This document shows positions 6,746 to 42,118 of a stretch of DNA of 64,000 nt, one piece after another. Each line of letters begins with the position of its first letter. The first letter of the stretch is position 1. This stretch comes from a virus: positions 39,529 through 103,528 of the IMG/VR virus record IMGVR_UViG_3300044800_000271, one strand, 5' to 3'. The notes beneath the pieces are model-generated. The model was given only the letters and a program-made list of their open reading frames with translations, did not search any database and was not told where the DNA came from. A program made the position numbers and the translations under genes.

Positions 6746-6806
6746 TCAATAACTTACAGGATCAATGTAAGCGGATACAAATACGAACTTTTCAGTATTG
6801 GTGTAT

Positions 6807-8588
6807 ATGCTGAAAGATTATTGGCTGGGCCAATTGTGGGGTGGGGTTAGACTAGACCCCACTCAAAATCTACTAGATGAGTGGGGGCCGGGCAGTCATC
6901 AAAAGCTTTCAGCGATCTGTTCTTGTGGTAGATCGTTCTCTCCTGTGTTCAAAAATCTAACTCGCGGGCAGGTCAAATCTTGTGGCAAATGTACCTGTAA
7001 GCCAGCCTCTTATTGGCTCGAACAGGCTTGGGGAAGTTTGAAACTATCAGCGGATCAACCTCTTCCTAAGGAGTTCCCGCCCAGCCACGCCAAATTTTTA
7101 ATCTTCAACTGCATCTGTGGCAGTATTACACGCAAGTATTTGCCTGATGTTCAATCGGGACGAATCGCTTCCTGCGGTCATTGCAATGACCGTCCAAAAA
7201 ACTACTGGCTGAGTCAGAAGTGGGGCAAATACTCTCTGCGTAAAACCCAACCTTTACCTGACGTATTCAATCTAATGTCAGCAAAGAAGTTTGAATTTCA
7301 ATGCCAATGTGGCCGGAATTCTACGCTACGCGGATCGTGGGTTGTGTCAGGCAACTCCACCTCCTGCGGTAAGTGTAGCTGGAAGCCCAAGGCATATTGG
7401 TTAAAGCAGAGATGGGAAAAACTAGCGTTGGATGGGAACCAAGTCCTGCCGGACGAGTGGGGGGATGGGCGATCAGCACCGCTACGTTTCATTTGTGATT
7501 GTGGCCGAAGTGTATCAACCAGCATTTACAATGTTGTAAATCAACGCGTTAGTTCCTGCGGTCGCTGCAATTGGAAGCCTAAATTTGAGTGGTTAGACCA
7601 ATCGTGGGGCAGCCTTAAAATAGACCCCAACCAACCTCTCCCCGAGGAATGGGGGGTTACAAAGAAAGTACGCTTGCTTTGCGACTGCGGGGGTAAAATC
7701 GTTTCCAACCTATTCAATATAATTTCGGGGCGAACAATTTCCTGCGGCTGTAGCAAGGGGCAAGGTCCCGCTTCCCCCGAATCGGAAATCAGAAAGTTTG
7801 TGGCATCATTAGAGCCCAGTACGTACAACGGAACTTACCGAATATTGGGTACCCGCAAAAGTTATGACATCTACATCCCGTCTAAGAAACTAGCTGTTGA
7901 GCATCACGGACTGATATGGCACTCGGAAAAATACAGTGGGACAAAAGCCGACTACGATAAGAGTTTGATCGCCGTGAACCGTGGAGACCGTCTGATCCAG
8001 ATTTACGCTGATGAATGGAAAAACAAACGCAATATCATGGAACGTATGCTTTGTGATGCGATCAAACCGACAAGCAAAAAACGCATCAATCCAATTTTCA
8101 CGGTTGAACGCGGAACTCCCAAGGATGCTAGAGGGTTTTTGGATGCCAATCATTATCTTGGGGCCGCCAGTGGATGTCTTACTGTTGTGGCGAAATACAA
8201 AGAAGAGATTGTAGGTTGCTGGGTGTTCATGAAACGCGAAGCTCATACCGTGCTGTGGCACCGAGCTTGCTGGGATTGCCGGTTTAAGGCTTGGAATCCC
8301 CATGAAAAGGCTTTAACCATGGCGAAGCCGTCGCTCAAGGCCATGGAGTTCACTCGCATGGTGACTTTTTCCGACAACCGCTTTCATACAGGAAGTCTGT
8401 ATGAAAAGCTTGGATTTACATTTGAGAAGGAGCTTAGACCGGATTACGGATATACAAATGGGGTTAAACGAGTTTCTAAGTATGCATTCCGGGTCAAAGC
8501 CGGAGTTAATGAAAAGCAAGCAGCAAGGGTTGGGGGTTGGTATCGCATATGGGATTCTGGGAAAAGGCGCTATTCAATGCCTTTATGA
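6807..8588 (+). CDS. Homing endonuclease with five zinc-ribbon repeats and GNAT-like C-terminus
   Basis: The N-terminal 330 residues are five tandem modules of about 66 residues, each with YWLxQxWG..L..., then CxCG and SCGxC, so each can bind zinc and probably DNA. A nuclease domain of the EDxHD/Vsr-like fold follows (E in PESEIRKF, D in SYDIYIP, VEHHGLIWHSEKY). The C-terminal 150 residues resemble the GNAT-like domain seen in related phage endonucleases (SDNRFHTGSLYEKLGF). The codon use is AT-richer than the neighbours, which suggests recent arrival. ATG at 6807 was chosen over upstream TTG and GTG codons; no strong ribosome site is visible for any. Confidence 0.8.
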   Translation: MLKDYWLGQLWGGVRLDPTQNLLDEWGPGSHQKLSAICSCGRSFSPVFKNLTRGQVKSCGKCTCKPASYWLEQAWGSLKLSADQPLPKEFPPSHAKFLIFNCICGSITRKYLPDVQSGRIASCGHCNDRPKNYWLSQKWGKYSLRKTQPLPDVFNLMSAKKFEFQCQCGRNSTLRGSWVVSGNSTSCGKCSWKPKAYWLKQRWEKLALDGNQVLPDEWGDGRSAPLRFICDCGRSVSTSIYNVVNQRVSSCGRCNWKPKFEWLDQSWGSLKIDPNQPLPEEWGVTKKVRLLCDCGGKIVSNLFNIISGRTISCGCSKGQGPASPESEIRKFVASLEPSTYNGTYRILGTRKSYDIYIPSKKLAVEHHGLIWHSEKYSGTKADYDKSLIAVNRGDRLIQIYADEWKNKRNIMERMLCDAIKPTSKKRINPIFTVERGTPKDARGFLDANHYLGAASGCLTVVAKYKEEIVGCWVFMKREAHTVLWHRACWDCRFKAWNPHEKALTMAKPSLKAMEFTRMVTFSDNRFHTGSLYEKLGFTFEKELRPDYGYTNGVKRVSKYAFRVKAGVNEKQAARVGGWYRIWDSGKRRYSMPL

Positions 8589-8952: not shown

Positions 8953-9062
8953 ATGCGGGTAGCTCAGTCGAGAGGGGCAAGTCACCTCCTAAATGTTTTG
9001 CCCCACAGAGCACCGTCCATTTAAGACGGAGGTCGTGAGTTCAATTCTCACCCCGCGTTCCA
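8953..9062 (+). tRNA. tRNA-like gene, anticodon TTT, with a hairpin inserted in the D loop
   Basis: The acceptor stem ATGCGGG/CCCGCGT (8953-8959 with 9052-9058) has one T-G wobble and is followed by discriminator T and an encoded CCA. The T arm GTGAG-TTCAATT-CTCAC and the anticodon stem CCGTC/GACGG are perfect. The D stem GCTC (8962-8965) pairs with GAGC (9008-9011), but the D loop is 42 nt instead of about 8. The extra sequence holds a 7-bp stem GGGGCAA/TTGCCCC (8974-8980 with 8998-9004) whose loop shows TCACCTCCT. The anticodon loop is CATTTAA, so position 33 is A, not the usual T. It could be Lys(TTT), a pre-tRNA with an insert, or a tRNA mimic. Confidence 0.55.
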
Positions 9063-9073
9063 AGTTTGAGTTT

Positions 9074-9324
9074 GTGCTGCATCCAGAAATTCCCTATCGC
9101 ACCGGGTAACGCCGCCATGTGGGTCAGCACGGGATGCAACCGGGGTGAATGCCCGGCAGCACAAAAAGTATATGGGCTCGCCCGCGAAATCCCCTGAGAG
9201 ATGCGAGCCGATCACAGGGATGTGAAATCCGACCAGCCACTTCCCGAGATATGGACTCCCGTTCTCAGCCGGGTCAAAGCCGGGGGAGTCGATAACAGGA
9301 GCCGGGAATCTACGCCCCGGCTCC
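9074..9324 (+). ncRNA. Candidate structured RNA upstream of the terminase gene
   Basis: The 340-base gap between the tRNA-like gene and the terminase has no convincing reading frame but a chain of inverted repeats: GTGCTGC 9074-9080 with GCAGCAC 9156-9162 (competing partners CAGCAC 9125-9130 and GGATGC 9132-9137), GGCTCGC 9175-9181 with GCGAGCC 9203-9209, TCACA 9212-9216 with TGTGA 9221-9225, GACTCCC 9254-9260 with GGGAGTC 9284-9290, and GGAGCCGGG 9298-9306 with CCCGGCTCC 9316-9324. No T-run follows the last stem, so it is not a simple terminator. A leader RNA, packaging RNA or regulatory RNA are all possible. Confidence 0.45.
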
Positions 9325-9403
9325 ACTCTTTCTGACGTGCGGTACCTAGCCTCCATGGAATCCGCATAACCCCGCTTTTCGCCCCTTTAAGTAGGGGTTA
9401 AGC

Positions 9404-12400
9404 ATGCCGCCACGCAGGGTCTCGATATTCAACAAGGAAGCGCAGAGGAATTCCGCCTTCGGCAAGGCGATCAGCGCCGGGCTAACGGACATCAACCGCA
9501 AGTTGATGAACGCGGTCGAGTTCATCGAAGGCCCGCAGGGCACCGGCATAGTCCTGCGCCCCGTGCAGCGCGTCATCGCCAAGTGCATCTTCGGCGTGCC
9601 GCTGGATTGGCGTCCGGAGTGGGCCGACCGCATCCCGCTCTGGGGCCAGGTGCAGATGTGGGACGTGTTCCGCGAGAAGCTCATCCGCACGGTGTCGGAG
9701 GAAGAGTACCTCCACATAGCGTTCAACGAAAACCGCTGCAACATCGACGATTGGCGGGACATCCCGAACCTCGGCAAGACTTACGGCGGGTACAACGAAG
9801 CGGTCGTCTTTGCTGGCCGCCGTGGGGGGAAGGCCCTCGCTTTGGATGAGCCTATCCCCACCCCCAATGGGTTTGTTCGGAACGGTGACATCAAGGACGG
9901 GGACATGGTTTTATCTCCCAGCGGTAAGCCTACCAAGGTTGTTTACGCCCACGAGCCGTTTGTTTCAGAAGTATATTGTGTCACATTCGACGACGGCACA
10001 TCCGTGTTGGCCCATCCAGAGCATCGCTGGCTGACGTTTACTAGGGCTGACCGTATGGCCTCGTGTTATCGCACACCAGAACACCGTAAAGCACGCAGAG
10101 AACAACGCAGGGTAAGGGCGGTTGCTGCTGGTTATGAGTATGCGCCACGCCCTGAAATAGTTGGTTTATGTACTAAACTTCAACCGATGGGGTCTGTAAA
10201 AACAACCCAAGAAATTTTTCAGACACTTAAAGTCGGCAATTATTCTAATCATGCGATTCCGCTGCCTAGAGCGGTTGAACTACCGGATAAAGACCTTCCC
10301 CTTGACCCGTATTGCTTTGGGTGTTGGTTAGGCGATGGAGAAAGCGCTGGAGGAAATTATGCTGCGGAAGAGTCTGACGCCTTGGAAATTCTTAAATATT
10401 TTGTAAGTGCCGGGTTTAGCTGGAAAAAGTCTAAAAGAAAACATCGTTGGTCTATCCGCGGGTTAAAAGTTGTGTTGCGAAAAATGGGGGTTCTTGGAAA
10501 CAAACATATTCCGAATGATTATCTTTGGGCTTCATCTTCTCAAAGAAAGGCGCTATTGCAGGGTTTGTTAGATACAGATGGGGGATGCTCAAAAGGATTA
10601 GTGACATTCACCAACACGAGACGTAATCTTTCGGAGGGAGTGTATCATTTAGCAGCAAGTTTGGGGCTTAAGCCTTATTGGAAAGAGGTGCCCCCTCGTA
10701 ACCCCAAGCACAAAGTGCAATATTGGGTAACATGGACAGGAGAATCTTCTGTTTTTCGTCTACAGAGGAAGCTTAATCTGCTCTCTGTGACTGTGCGTAA
10801 AACTCAAAAATACAGGTACGTTGTGTCTATAGAACCCGCTGGAAGGCGAATGGTGCGTTGTTTGACGGTCGAAGACCCGGACGGTTTGTTTTTGTTTGGC
10901 AAAAACTTCAATATCACGCACAATTCGGAACTTGTCGCCGCCATCACCTGTTTCAAGCTGTACCTCCTTCTGAACATCCGCTCGCCGCAGGAATTCTTCG
11001 GCTTGGTCCCCGGCTCCCCCATAGACATCACCTACTTGGCTCAAGATGACACCGGCGCTGACCGCCTGTTCAAGAAGCTCAGCGAGCGCGTGAACCATTG
11101 CAGTTTCTTCGAGCCCTTCGTCCGGGACAACAACAGCAAGAAACTGACCTTTGTCTGCGAAGCCGACCGCCACAAGCGGGACATAACGCCGACCCTCACG
11201 GTGTGGTCGCTGCCCTGCTCCACGAACGCCGTCCGCGGACCTTCGTCCGTGTTCCTCGCCCTCGACGAATTCGCCCATTTCCGCGCCGAAAAAGGCAGCA
11301 CATCGGAGGACATGTACGCCGCAGCCACTCCATCGACCGTGGACTTCCACCACACGGAACGCATTTATGCCGATGGCACGACGGAAGCCATCCCTCCGGA
11401 AGCCGATCCCGACAACGAAGAGGAGGTTCTTGAGGAGGACATCTCGGCGCAGGTCTACGAAAAGAACATTCTGGCTCCCCGCCTCCCTGGGCAATTCGGC
11501 GTCCAGGACTCGATGATCTTCAGCATCTCCTCGCCCCTGAAGCGGGTCGGCAAGATGTACGAATTGCACAAGCTGGCTTTGTCCAAGGGTGCCGCCTCCT
11601 CGATTTTCACCTTGAACTGCTCGACCGCCGAGATGAACAACAAGGTCCTTTCCAAGACCCTGCGGGCCGACCATGAAAAGAATCCCCTGACGTTCAGGGC
11701 CGAGTTCGGCGGGCAGTTCCTCGAATCGTCCGAGTCGTACGTCACGGAAGCCGCGGTCAAGTCCTGCGTGGACTGCCATTGGGACGAGACGGGGCTGCCC
11801 ACGGAGGGCAGCACCCGGCTGAACGTCGTGAGCTTCATCCCGCAGCTTCACCTCGGGCGCAACTACTTCTGGGGATTCGACCTCGGCATGATCTGCGACG
11901 CCAGCGCGCTCGCGATCGCGCACCTCGAATACGGCGGCGGGGGCGGCATCAGGCTGATCTATGACTACATCGACCGCATGATGGTGGGGGAGCATTTCAC
12001 GGGGCCGTTCATCCCGCAAGCGCCGGGGGAGAAGAGGTACGAAAATTACAAGGTGCTGCCGCTCGAAGACATCCTCGTCTGGATGAAGGCCATCAACAGG
12101 ATTCTGCCCTGCTTCCGCGGGGCGACCGACCAGCACGGAGGTCAGCAGCTTGCCCAGCTTCTCGAACTGAACGGCATCTTCAACTTCGAGATGCTGAACA
12201 TCACCCCGGCGATCAACTCGCAGATGGCGTACGCCCTCAGGGGCTACATCGAGAACAAGCTCTGCTCGTTCCCGTACGAGCCGAAGTTCATCAAGGAACT
12301 GAAATTGGTGGAACTGGAGGTGGCGTCCAAGTACAGGATTCGCGTCCAAGCGCCGATGGAGAAGGGAGCCCACGACGACATGGCGGACGCCGCGATGCTT

Positions 12401-12646
12401 TGCGCCCTGCTCGCCCAGAACTGGCTCGTCAAGGAAGGCAACGTGCACATGGACCCCAAGGGCATCGGTCTCCTGATGCAACAGCAGCAATCCAGGCCCC
12501 CGGCACCGCTCTCGAACATCGATGGCGTCCCGCTTTCGACCCTCAAGGTCATGGAAAGGACCAAGAAACTCACAACAAATCTGGGATATTCGAGCGGCAC
12601 GGCCCCGAGGAGCCCGTGGAGCCGCAGGGGCGGCCGCCACAGATAA
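9404..12646 (+). CDS. terL: Terminase large subunit with in-frame intein
   Basis: This is the DNA-packaging motor ATPase and nuclease. The 1,080-residue precursor contains a 364-residue intein; the spliced product is about 716 residues, a normal to large TerL. The N-extein ends in the Walker A motif (AGRRGGK), completed by Ser directly after the intein. Walker B is VFLALDEFAHF. The C-terminal RNase H-like nuclease domain shows FWGFDLGMICDAS, ATDQHGG and HDDMADAAML. The intein lies exactly within the P-loop, so ATPase activity should depend on splicing. It follows the structured region and precedes a membrane protein. Confidence 0.95.
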   Translation: MPPRRVSIFNKEAQRNSAFGKAISAGLTDINRKLMNAVEFIEGPQGTGIVLRPVQRVIAKCIFGVPLDWRPEWADRIPLWGQVQMWDVFREKLIRTVSEEEYLHIAFNENRCNIDDWRDIPNLGKTYGGYNEAVVFAGRRGGKALALDEPIPTPNGFVRNGDIKDGDMVLSPSGKPTKVVYAHEPFVSEVYCVTFDDGTSVLAHPEHRWLTFTRADRMASCYRTPEHRKARREQRRVRAVAAGYEYAPRPEIVGLCTKLQPMGSVKTTQEIFQTLKVGNYSNHAIPLPRAVELPDKDLPLDPYCFGCWLGDGESAGGNYAAEESDALEILKYFVSAGFSWKKSKRKHRWSIRGLKVVLRKMGVLGNKHIPNDYLWASSSQRKALLQGLLDTDGGCSKGLVTFTNTRRNLSEGVYHLAASLGLKPYWKEVPPRNPKHKVQYWVTWTGESSVFRLQRKLNLLSVTVRKTQKYRYVVSIEPAGRRMVRCLTVEDPDGLFLFGKNFNITHNSELVAAITCFKLYLLLNIRSPQEFFGLVPGSPIDITYLAQDDTGADRLFKKLSERVNHCSFFEPFVRDNNSKKLTFVCEADRHKRDITPTLTVWSLPCSTNAVRGPSSVFLALDEFAHFRAEKGSTSEDMYAAATPSTVDFHHTERIYADGTTEAIPPEADPDNEEEVLEEDISAQVYEKNILAPRLPGQFGVQDSMIFSISSPLKRVGKMYELHKLALSKGAASSIFTLNCSTAEMNNKVLSKTLRADHEKNPLTFRAEFGGQFLESSESYVTEAAVKSCVDCHWDETGLPTEGSTRLNVVSFIPQLHLGRNYFWGFDLGMICDASALAIAHLEYGGGGGIRLIYDYIDRMMVGEHFTGPFIPQAPGEKRYENYKVLPLEDILVWMKAINRILPCFRGATDQHGGQQLAQLLELNGIFNFEMLNITPAINSQMAYALRGYIENKLCSFPYEPKFIKELKLVELEVASKYRIRVQAPMEKGAHDDMADAAMLCALLAQNWLVKEGNVHMDPKGIGLLMQQQQSRPPAPLSNIDGVPLSTLKVMERTKKLTTNLGYSSGTAPRSPWSRRGGRHR
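9833..10924 (+). mobile_element. Intein in TerL P-loop (Ala1, LAGLIDADG type)
   Basis: The 364-residue intein starts with Ala (ALALDEPIPTPNG) and ends FNITHN followed by Ser. Block B contains AHPEHRW. Two LAGLIDADG motifs are visible (CFGCWLGDGES and LLQGLLDTDGG), so it should be a bifunctional splicing and homing element. The base composition drops toward AT relative to the exteins, in keeping with horizontal acquisition. Ala1 inteins are known to splice without the first N-S or N-O shift. The insertion site, the Walker A Lys-Ser junction, is one of the most conserved points of TerL. Confidence 0.93.
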
Positions 12647-38266: not shown

Positions 38267-39147
38267 GACCTTGCTCCCATACCAAGCAGCCAGCCCGCAT
38301 TCAAAGATTCTGGCACTTCATTTAAGGGTACCATCTTTGCTTTTCCCGATTCTTGGTGTATCCATTTTGTGCCCCGCTTCGTGCCGGGCTTTCCAAACTG
38401 CGGGTTCTTTGCCCCAGTTTTTGATTCACGATAGCGTTGGCGTGATTCTTCCGACCTAACTTTGCCTCGGTTAGCGAGGCTGATCTTCCTACGCGTTTCT
38501 TCAGACGGTGCTTGTTTCACTTTTCCCCGATTAGCGAGGCTGATTTTTCTGCGAGTTTCTTCAGACGGGGCGTATTTCACCTTTCTTTGTTTTTGCTTTA
38601 CTCCCCCCAAGAGGCTCTTAAATGCCCCAATTTTATCCTCTGAGAATTGTTGACCGTGCAACGGATGAGAGGAGCCGGAATTGGCTATGCTTAATTTTAT
38701 CTTGGCGGCCAACGGCAGGGGTTTTCCCCTCCAAACACTGGCTTTGCCATAATTCGGGTTTCTAGTCCCAGACGTTGCTCGGCTGAGCTTCAAACGTGTC
38801 TCTTTACTCGGATGGTATCCAATGCTTCCTTCTCCTCCAGACGTGAGGTTGTATCCAGTATCCGCGTTATCAGCTTGCAGTTCTTGAATGTACTTCTTTT
38901 CCAAACGACAAAGTTCATCATTGGTAGTGGCGGTTGCGAGGATGCTAAGTTCAAATGCTTCTTCTCCATATTTACGCAGCGCCCGATGGAAGAAGGCGGG
39001 GCTATTATTTGAAAAAGCATGCCAATGATGGGTTTTCCAGCGTGTCCGCATGGACTTAACAGTTTTTCCTATATACACTTTACCTGTTATCTTGTTACGA
39101 AAACAGTAAACAACGTTTTTCTGGCAGAGGACGGCATCATCAAACAT
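38263..39147 (-). CDS. GIY-YIG homing endonuclease with NUMOD3 repeats
   Basis: The 294-residue protein has a GIY-YIG core (NVVYCFRNKITGKVYIGKT near residue 10, then ALRKYGEEAFE and a Glu-rich RLEKKYIQEL) followed by NUMOD3-like DNA-binding modules (SKETRLKLSRA; two near-identical copies of PSEETRRKISLANRGKV). ATG 39147 was preferred because it overlaps the stop of the upstream gene. It is a mobile gene lodged at the end of a polyvalent gene. Confidence 0.85.
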   Translation of the reverse strand: MFDDAVLCQKNVVYCFRNKITGKVYIGKTVKSMRTRWKTHHWHAFSNNSPAFFHRALRKYGEEAFELSILATATTNDELCRLEKKYIQELQADNADTGYNLTSGGEGSIGYHPSKETRLKLSRATSGTRNPNYGKASVWRGKPLPLAAKIKLSIANSGSSHPLHGQQFSEDKIGAFKSLLGGVKQKQRKVKYAPSEETRRKISLANRGKVKQAPSEETRRKISLANRGKVRSEESRQRYRESKTGAKNPQFGKPGTKRGTKWIHQESGKAKMVPLNEVPESLNAGWLLGMGARS

Positions 39148-42118
39148 CGTATTTGTCCTTCTCTTCAATGTGGTGAAGGCGACAGAAGCGTTCCCGAGCC
39201 CAGCGCGGCACTTCTATGTAGAAATACACGGGGGCGACTGGCTGTGCCGCGGCTATCTTCCGAATGGGGACTTCTTGCAGGATGCTTTGCAAGTCTGTGG
39301 TATATAGGGCGTCTTTCTTGCCGAAGCGCCAGCAGCGATCCGGGAATACGGGGCCTTGGTGCGCAACGTGAGCCCCGTGGTCGAGAAGCCATTCGGCGAC
39401 ATCGGGCGGCAGCCGCTTCTGGAGCTTTTTGCCGACCTGCGACTGCACGGCCGCTTCGTCGATGCGGTCCAGTTGCGCCGGTGTCAGGTAAGTCTTGAGC
39501 CAGGCAAGCCGGTTTTGAATGTCTTCCGGGGCTTTGGCGATCGGCTGCTCCATGACGGCCTTCAAGCCGCGCTGCAAGCCTTCCTTCTCGCCCTTCCAGC
39601 GTTCGGGCTGGGTCTCAAGCTCTTCCAGCCTGCGCGTATCCTTTTTGTAGTCGATCATCCACGCGAGGGCTTCGCCGATGCTATCCTCGTCAGGCACCAC
39701 ATCCCCGGCGAGGTCGGCTCCCCGCACCTCGAAAATGTATCCGTATTCTCCCGCCTTGATGTGATTCTTGAGCCACATGTCGGCGGTATAATTGGTTTTC
39801 GTCCGGTCGCTGAGCCCCATTCCGAACGCTTGACCGCCCAAGGCGTAAATCGCGGCATAACCAAAGCTGTCAGTCAGATAAACACGATCCGGCACCGGAG
39901 CTTGCATCGCCCGGCTCTTGGCTTTGTTTGGCAGGATAATTTCGCGGGGCTGGATGCCCTCTTTGAGAATGGCTTGAGCCCGAGCTTCTTCATCGGTGCC
40001 ATGATAATATGTCTTTTGCTTCGCTTCATCGTGAAGCGGCGCGGCAGTCTTTTTGTTTTCGGAATACAGCTGCTCGACCCAAGCGGCGATCCTTGACGGA
40101 TCTTCGGGAACCACATGCATGCCGATGAATTTCGTCCGCAAGTTCCTGAGGTATTTCGCGTGGGTGTCGTTGAGCAATGCCAGCGCCTCCTCGGGGGTCT
40201 TGCACTGGTTCTTGATGCGGAGCGGCCCGCCAGCGATATTCACCAAATCCCACAGCGTCACGTAGGTTGCCTTGGCGGCAGCCTTGTTCAAAAGGCTCTT
40301 GATCTCCCCGCCCGGCGTCATGGGGGCGTTCGTCTCCGGCTCCTGCGCCTCGGGCTCGTCCTTCGGAGCGAACAAATCCCATTCCTCTTGGAACGGGTCG
40401 CGCTTGGGGGTCTTGTACATGCCGACCGGCTTGTGGTCGGTGTGCTGCACTTGGTTCTGCGCCTCGGCGAAGACGGCGGTCACGCTGCGGAACCTCGGAG
40501 GCGGATTGCGCCATGTGGTCTCGCCATATTTCTTCACGCCCGTGACTTGGATTCGAGCGCCCTTGACCAGATGGACTTCTTTCTCGTCCTCCGCCGCAAG
40601 GTTTGTCCAAGCCGTATGCAGCCAATCCACCTTGGAGGGATCGGAGATGACGGCGCGGAACATGATGATGCCCTTCTTGCCCCACGCCGGACAATTGTGG
40701 AGAAGCTCCTTGCTCAGGTAGGCGCTATCTTCGTCGTATGCCCAATAGACCCCCAGCCCACGTCCCGTTATGCTTTCCTTGGACACGAAATCGGGATCGG
40801 TGACGACCTCTTTCGCGCTGTTCGCGCAAACGCCGCGGTAGACGGTGAGCGGGAATTTGTGCGATTGCATGAGCGCATTGACTTGTTTCCAACGCCGGGT
40901 GACCTCCTTCAAGCCCAGCTTGTTGAGGGCGGTTTCCTGCTCGGCTTCAGGTAAATTCTTTACCTTTTTGCGGAGCGGTTCCCAGTCCACGAGGTCGTTG
41001 ACCACGCTTTCGACGCTGCCGCCGCCGTATTCGAGCACTTCTTCCAAGGATGGAAATCCGGCTGCCTTCTTTTCGAACATCTCCGGCGCAAGTTCCTCCA
41101 GAGTCGGAAGGGCTTCGACGCCCTTCACGCGCTCCGGGATGTCGGCATAGGCATTGGTCTCCTGCCCGATTTCCGGGTTCTCGTACACGGTGTCGGAGAG
41201 CGGCGGGGTCTTGTGGCTGCCTTGGATCGCAAGCGGGGCATGGGGCTTCCCGACCGATTGGAACGACCCGTCGGGCATGATGTCGTACATCACGAGTTTC
41301 TGCTTGGCCGCCCATTCGGGGAATCTCTCTTGCTGTTCGGCGTATCCGCCCCACGGGTTTTCGAAGATACGGATGTCTCTCCAAGGGACGCGCTTCCCGG
41401 CGACCTCTCCGACAATTTGTTTTACAATCTTGAGCACCTGACGCCACTGCATGCCGCGCTGCGGAAAGCGGACGACCACCGCGGGCGGGAATCCCTCCGC
41501 ATCGGCTGCCAGAGTCACGCAGCTTCCCCTGTCGCTCGCCGCCGTCTTGGCCTTCCCGAACGGCACGGCGACGCAAACCCTGTCCTTCTTCGAGATGGTG
41601 ATGCTGTCGGCCTCGAAGGCGATGCCTTTGAAGATGTCCAAGCCTTCGTACTTGCTCGCGGCCTCGGGCTTGACGTACGCCAAACAAACGTGCGGTAAGT
41701 AGTCCGGAAAGCTGTCTTCCTTGACGCCCATGGCCTTGTCGATAGCCGTATGCAGTTCGTGAAGCTCGGGAGCATCGACCAAGACCGCTACCGGGGCCGC
41801 GCCGTCGCTGGACTCGCTCGGGTCGAAGACGTGCGTCTTGCCCAACTCGACGACGAACGCAGCTTGCCCGGCAACCGCTTTGACGAGGTCGTCTTCGGAC
41901 TCTTTAACCCCGTATTTGGTCGTCACGTGCAAATTTTCCTCGTAGCCGTCAGCCATGAGGTCGGACTCCGGGATGACCTCCCGCACGGCTTCCCGTAGCT
42001 TCTCGGCCAGTTCCTCCGGGAGGTTGATTTGCGTGCTGGCATGCTTGGCCGTGGTCTTGGCGATTTTTCCGTTCTCGGGTGCGACACTGATGGCGGATTT
42101 GAGCAATGATGATTCCAC
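39140..42118 (-). CDS. Polyvalent protein: 2H phosphoesterase and two ART-like domains
   Basis: The 992-residue protein starts at GTG 42118 after AGAGGG. Residues 25-190 form a 2H phosphoesterase (HVTTKYG at 64 and HVCLAYVKP at 143; the second box has Cys in place of Thr/Ser). An ART-like domain follows near 425-520 (YRGVCAN, GLGVYWAYDEDSAYLS) and another near 700-800 (YHGTDEEARA, RVYLTDSFGYA). KTAA/KKAA linkers divide the modules. Such domains can reverse or install RNA and protein modifications against host defence. Confidence 0.85.
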   Translation of the reverse strand: MESSLLKSAISVAPENGKIAKTTAKHASTQINLPEELAEKLREAVREVIPESDLMADGYEENLHVTTKYGVKESEDDLVKAVAGQAAFVVELGKTHVFDPSESSDGAAPVAVLVDAPELHELHTAIDKAMGVKEDSFPDYLPHVCLAYVKPEAASKYEGLDIFKGIAFEADSITISKKDRVCVAVPFGKAKTAASDRGSCVTLAADAEGFPPAVVVRFPQRGMQWRQVLKIVKQIVGEVAGKRVPWRDIRIFENPWGGYAEQQERFPEWAAKQKLVMYDIMPDGSFQSVGKPHAPLAIQGSHKTPPLSDTVYENPEIGQETNAYADIPERVKGVEALPTLEELAPEMFEKKAAGFPSLEEVLEYGGGSVESVVNDLVDWEPLRKKVKNLPEAEQETALNKLGLKEVTRRWKQVNALMQSHKFPLTVYRGVCANSAKEVVTDPDFVSKESITGRGLGVYWAYDEDSAYLSKELLHNCPAWGKKGIIMFRAVISDPSKVDWLHTAWTNLAAEDEKEVHLVKGARIQVTGVKKYGETTWRNPPPRFRSVTAVFAEAQNQVQHTDHKPVGMYKTPKRDPFQEEWDLFAPKDEPEAQEPETNAPMTPGGEIKSLLNKAAAKATYVTLWDLVNIAGGPLRIKNQCKTPEEALALLNDTHAKYLRNLRTKFIGMHVVPEDPSRIAAWVEQLYSENKKTAAPLHDEAKQKTYYHGTDEEARAQAILKEGIQPREIILPNKAKSRAMQAPVPDRVYLTDSFGYAAIYALGGQAFGMGLSDRTKTNYTADMWLKNHIKAGEYGYIFEVRGADLAGDVVPDEDSIGEALAWMIDYKKDTRRLEELETQPERWKGEKEGLQRGLKAVMEQPIAKAPEDIQNRLAWLKTYLTPAQLDRIDEAAVQSQVGKKLQKRLPPDVAEWLLDHGAHVAHQGPVFPDRCWRFGKKDALYTTDLQSILQEVPIRKIAAAQPVAPVYFYIEVPRWARERFCRLHHIEEKDKYDV

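Follow-up and report, generated by a model that had tools for sequence, protein, structure and literature searches.

Phage-encoded tRNAs are already known, and the build of the RNA gene analysed here is new among them. The canonical tRNA (RF00005) shares with this gene the acceptor, D, anticodon and T stems, the T-loop consensus and the CCA end, whereas our gene has a 42-nt D loop containing a hairpin, and its position 33 is A, not U. Some phage tRNAs carry mutations in the anticodon loop that have been proposed to evade anticodon nucleases (PMC10264068); like our gene, they are phage tRNAs with an altered anticodon loop, but they are otherwise ordinary, and the paper mentions no D-loop insert. 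In Bacillus cereus, tRNA-Other is a pseudo-tRNA reported to have a role outside translation (PMC3399842); this tRNA-like RNA is bacterial, not from a phage, and we liken it to ours by description, not by sequence.

The gene lies at 8953–9062 on the plus strand of the window, by which we mean the whole 64,000-nt stretch of phage DNA that was analysed, bases 39,529–103,528 of a 103,528-nt viral record, and it is the sole tRNA match in that entire record. An earlier note on this DNA had described a gene that keeps all tRNA stems and an encoded CCA, in agreement with the sequence, the predicted fold and the RF00005 match. The acceptor stem joins AUGCGGG (8953–8959) to CCCGCGU (9052–9058) with 7/7 positions paired, one of them G-U. 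The 5′ strand of the D stem, GCUC (8962–8965), can pair with GAGC (9008–9011) or alternatively with GGGC (8975–8978), the constrained folds reaching −39.4 versus −33.1 kcal/mol. The T arm, GUGAG-UUCAAUU-CUCAC (9035–9051; stem 9035–9039/9047–9051), lies within the RF00005 match and is followed by the acceptor 3′ strand, the discriminator U73 and the CCA (9059–9062; CCA at 9060–9062). The acceptor, D, anticodon and T stems are all fully paired. In a lax-filter search the match to RF00005 spans 8953–9059 and scores 44.4 bits, above the curated gathering score of 29, and the gene is missed by a default-filter Rfam scan and by ARAGORN in its default bacterial mode. The whole RNA (minimum free energy −40.5) folds better than 200/200 shuffles (z −4.0). 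No promoter-like site was found for the gene, and phage isolates showed no DNA similarity to this region.

At the standard anticodon position, the arm CCGUC-CAUUUAA-GACGG (9013–9029; stems 9013–9017/9025–9029) has 5 bp and a 7-nt loop with UUU where the anticodon would be and A33 replacing U33, a break of the T33 rule that had been correctly noticed before. A tRNA that has lost U33 should decode poorly, and with A33 in CAUUUAA the gene falls outside decoding elongators, defined by a 7-nt anticodon loop with U33. The same loop could nevertheless belong to a tRNA-Lys(UUU) that escapes host anticodon nucleases through its altered position 33 and still supplies lysine; the tRNA-Lys(UUU) genes of three related phages (G002, G003, G029) likewise carry U73, and the nuclease-evading phage tRNAs provide a precedent. 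We regard this explanation as improbable, as it leaves the D-loop insert unexplained, has to accommodate the expected impairment of decoding, and leans on a precedent that makes no mention of position 33.

Our preferred reading, to which we assign a probability of about 45%, is that the window RNA is a non-decoding tRNA-derived RNA, a tRNA mimic that belongs, as a divergent member, to the assortment of non-canonical tRNAs found in related phages; we infer both its kinship within this assortment and its function. RNase P, CCA enzymes, EF-Tu, synthetases and tRNA-cleaving defence proteins read the conserved parts of tRNAs, and the acceptor stem, T arm, D stem and CCA, which such tRNA-handling proteins read, are the parts that the window RNA keeps, making a tRNA mimic the likeliest role. 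The RNA would be processed as a tRNA is, its arm at the anticodon position, devoid of U33, would not support normal decoding, and its extra D-loop hairpin would present an anticodon-like loop, CCUCCUAAA. As a mimic, it may bind tRNA-handling or tRNA-attacking host proteins, for example anticodon nucleases, rather than decode mRNA or base-pair with ribosome-binding sites.

The D loop extends over 42 nt (8966–9007), the length given in the earlier note, and contains the extra hairpin at 8974–9004. The stem of this hairpin (8974–8981/8997–9004), previously described as 7 bp with a 17-nt loop, holds up with seven Watson-Crick pairs and one G-U; inward of the helix, a U-U mismatch and two further pairs leave CCUCCUAAA (8985–8993) unpaired. 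Taken alone, the hairpin is marginally better than chance, with 4.7% of dinucleotide shuffles folding equally well. Its loop includes CUCCUAA, which in tRNA-Arg(CCU) genes is the anticodon loop, and a scan for the loop string CCUCCUAA recovered five ordinary tRNA-Arg(CCU) genes; alternatively, CCUCCUAAA can be viewed as the amber-type loop CUCUAAA plus one additional C. An archaeal-type D-loop intron was set aside, as visual inspection showed no bulge-helix-bulge and the host of the nearest isolate is a bacterium.

Within the loop region of the hairpin, TCACCTCCT (8982–8990) is identical to nine bases of the 16S rRNA tail, an exact match from which it had been proposed that the RNA could bind to the ribosome-binding sites of mRNAs or act as a competitor of the ribosome and its 16S rRNA. 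Of dinucleotide-shuffled D loops, 0.1% contain some 9-mer of the 16S tail, a post hoc value for a single motif when many others could have drawn notice. In the window, TCACCTCCT occurs once against 0.37 expected, and at least once in 30 of 100 shuffles; with these values it is uncommon at such a position, yet chosen after the fact. The bases T8982–A8984 are not all free because of the two extra pairs beyond the U-U mismatch, and in the predicted fold the CA of the motif is paired, the free part consisting of CCUCCU and AAA only. A gapped pattern scan of IMG/VR for the same arrangement yielded no second tRNA D loop with TCACCTCCT, while 17 pattern matches in 84,980 prokaryote species genomes included no comparable tRNA after structure filtering, and 86 matches to a looser viral pattern included none of the window kind under the same kind of filter. 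Among 38 viral tRNA-likes with long D regions, described below, CCTCC is found in the long D region of one, the window gene itself. The earlier note had made conservation of the loop the touchstone of its proposal, and what we found largely contradicts it: D-loop inserts among comparable RNAs are sometimes present and sometimes absent, their sequences differ, and TCACCTCCT is in no comparable RNA. The Shine-Dalgarno signal of the phage is itself weak (20/111 candidate ATGs, where the background is 11% and the choice of starts was crude). Given the lack of conservation, the chance expectation, the Arg(CCU)-like loop and this weak signal, we reject an anti-Shine-Dalgarno function as unsupported and very improbable, although the idea, had it held, would have made a more striking claim; the match is probably a by-product of the anticodon-like loop.

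The next protein gene downstream, beyond a leader, is terL (9404–12646, plus strand), encoding a terminase large subunit with a LAGLIDADG intein (residues 144–507) inserted in its Walker A motif. With this protein as query, IMG/VR yielded 44 TerL relatives, of which the closest is 65% identical; the nearest isolate, the acidobacterial phage Tunturi_5, is rich in tRNAs and has a TerL without intein that is ~47% identical outside the intein. Several of the TerL relatives carry tens of tRNAs, two unusual sets among them. The site of the tRNA-like gene is variable among relatives. Directly upstream of terL, G010 has a five-armed CUA tRNA and G029 a CUA tRNA with U73, and the five-armed copies of G001 and G002 are located elsewhere.

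The first unusual set consists of seven five-armed amber (CUA) tRNA genes, in G001, G002, G010 and four further contigs (L281:7403-7506, L331:7631-7736 and L382:2706-2809, and, on the minus strand, L334:3047-3152, L335:59-163, L383:13524-13630 and L384:345-451). Their arms follow the order D arm, CUA anticodon arm, a mini-hairpin CUC-NNNA-GAG, an 8-bp arm with mostly a 4-nt loop ending in UUA, and T arm. The extra 8-bp arm is strongly supported by covariation, with 98.7% of alignment cells paired and both sides changed in 14/32 pairs, a level that 0/500 shuffles reach and that slid registers come nowhere near. ARAGORN in default bacterial mode misses these genes, a search of isolate phages for D-insert or five-armed RNAs gave partial matches to ordinary tRNAs only, and no description was found in the open-licence papers searched. 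The five-armed amber tRNAs are a stronger discovery than the window gene.

Like the window RNA, these tRNAs have two anticodon-like arms in tandem, and the parts of the window RNA come in the same order (GCUC, GGGC, the hairpin with CCUCCUAAA, CCCCACA-GAGC, second arm). The spacers compare as CCUCNNNA-GAGC in the set and CCCCACA-GAGC in the window; U73 (5/7 members) and the U-U-C-A-A T loop (4/7) are shared, the second arm lacks U33 in both, and the G010 member occupies the same place directly upstream of terL. In contrast, the acceptor differs, the loop of the first arm is CUCUAAA or CCCUAAC in the set and CCUCCUAAA in the window, and the preferred fold is reversed, with the relatives favouring the first D 3′ strand by 2.5–8.6 kcal/mol and the window favouring the second by 6.3 kcal/mol in constrained folding.

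These features could be accommodated if the window gene were an ortholog of the five-armed CUA tRNAs caught in a flipped state, a two-armed amber-type tRNA whose arms compete for the anticodon position by exchanging D-stem partners. The first arm, with CUCCUAAA, would then carry either a CCU loop or an amber loop to which a single C has been added. The shared spacer, U73 and T loop, the gene order upstream of terL in G010 and G029, the four mutually complementary strands and the opposite D 3′ preferences are all consistent with this. However, CUA is absent from the window gene unless one C in CUCCUAAA is an insertion, the first arm of the window contains C-A and U-U mismatches, and CUCCUAA is in no other two-armed tRNA: in a search for two-armed tRNAs with this loop, nothing but ordinary tRNA-Arg(CCU) genes came through the structure filter. 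On a covariance model of the set (R1), the window gene scores 49.3 bits, a value that ordinary tRNAs also attain (up to 56.4) and that leaves it outside the set when membership is taken as an R1 score above ordinary tRNAs; the members score 107–122, being the same genes that built the model. TAG is moreover an ordinary stop here, terminating 10/42 genes, and no TAG recoding was seen in the window phage. We consider the flipped state unlikely. Similarly unlikely is a single switchable family that unites the five-armed amber tRNAs with the window RNA, in which two anticodon-like arms share one tRNA body and alternate at the anticodon position by exchanging D-stem partners; if this were true, one gene could switch between acting as a suppressor tRNA and as a non-decoding mimic. 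TAG recoding, which would have given amber tRNAs a plain role, was rejected for the window phage on the same grounds of ordinary TAG use.

The second unusual set comprises tRNA-likes with the acceptor ACGCGGG/CCCGCGU, present in G001, G002, G003, G029 and further contigs (L261:1527-1600, L256:455-536, L395:1749-1830, L283:6670-6771, L386:10213-10299 and, on the minus strand, L240:5094-5168; L260 is also listed as a member). Their anticodon arm mostly has 6–7 bp and a tetraloop (GCAA, CUCG or UCCG) at its end, with another short loop in the others; the genes often lie beside tRNA-Lys(UUU) or CUA tRNAs, and no literature description of them was found. The acceptor differs from that of the window (AUGCGGG) at a single place, 13/14 positions being equal, both kinds have a non-decoding arm, and two members, L283 and L386, also have a D-loop hairpin. 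The window gene departs from the set in its arm of 5 bp with a 7-nt loop, where the set has an arm closed by a short loop, and in its discriminator (U versus G/A). A covariance model of this set (R2) gives the window gene 63.7 bits, with ordinary tRNAs reaching 70. A separate tRNA-like (L395:2941-3020) has, as its anticodon arm, a stem of 8 bp capped by CUAG.

A pattern scan with a structure filter collected 38 distinct viral tRNA-likes with 34–49 nt between the D-stem strands. A canonical 7-nt anticodon arm with U33 is absent from 33/38 of these, compared with 43/256 normal-D tRNAs taken from the relatives (Fisher 1.5e-17), a comparison that is descriptive, as the 38 include five-armed amber genes along with near-copies, and the pattern put some limit on arm length. 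Long D inserts go with loss of the decoding arm, and the insert sequences differ. A further tRNA-like family, GACCCTG/GGTCCTG, seen in several viral contigs (L265, L330, L349, L364, L378), has a conserved body, a hypervariable D-loop insert and a tetraloop-like anticodon arm.

The mimic reading draws on the intact body and CCA, the related RNAs in TerL relatives and the association of long D regions with non-decoding arms. Its placement within the assortment is complicated by signals that split, with place, spacer, U73 and T loop pointing to the five-armed tRNAs and the acceptor to the ACGCGGG tRNA-likes, and it is opposed by the covariance models of both sets, which score the window gene no better than ordinary tRNAs. 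The marginal D-loop hairpin and the failure to find a promoter-like site likewise count against it. Aligning the body outside the D loop against ~270 tRNAs of the relatives was ambiguous, the best match being an ordinary tRNA-Ile, followed by the ACGCGGG set.

The most serious rival to the mimic reading is a decaying phage tRNA without present function, which acquired a D-loop segment by chance or duplication, lost U33 and owes its oddities to drift. Decay would fit the last tRNA remaining in the record, one missed by ARAGORN, with A33, a U-G pair in the acceptor, a hairpin marginal against shuffles and a location that varies among relatives. It accounts poorly for four fully paired stems with an intact T loop and CCA at z −4.0, and for the many phages that keep comparable RNAs with compensatory changes. 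The earlier note had argued that simple decay would not favour a perfect stem and an exact anti-Shine-Dalgarno loop. Comparable intact-bodied RNAs kept in relatives and other phages make the gene not obviously a case of simple decay. As our comparisons reach only relatives at 65% TerL identity or less, decay must be taken seriously, and we judge it rather unlikely.

Standard tRNA finders miss or misname such genes. Large phages keep RNAs with all that tRNA-binding proteins need, minus the decoding part, and they also keep amber tRNAs whose added arm is strongly constrained to pair. Should such RNAs be expressed, they point to roles of tRNAs in phage infection beyond codon supply.

Several further features were observed around the locus and in the relatives. 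The terL leader (9063–9403) is structured (z −3.1), and by comparison with relatives a hairpin with a CUACGC loop (9299–9328, plus strand) is conserved upstream of terL, as is a TTTAAGTAGA-like motif ahead of where terL starts; the two are a possible terminator and a possible late promoter. An HNH/homing endonuclease gene lies at 6798–8588, two genes upstream of the tRNA-like gene. Reading through TAG raises the mean ORF length from 331 to 548 amino acids in the relative G004 (L041) and from 359 to 627 amino acids in G005 (L044), suggesting that TAG may be reassigned in these two. Finally, a 992-residue protein encoded at 39140–42118 on the minus strand of the window has a 2′-5′ RNA ligase/anti-CBASS Acb1-like domain near its N terminus.
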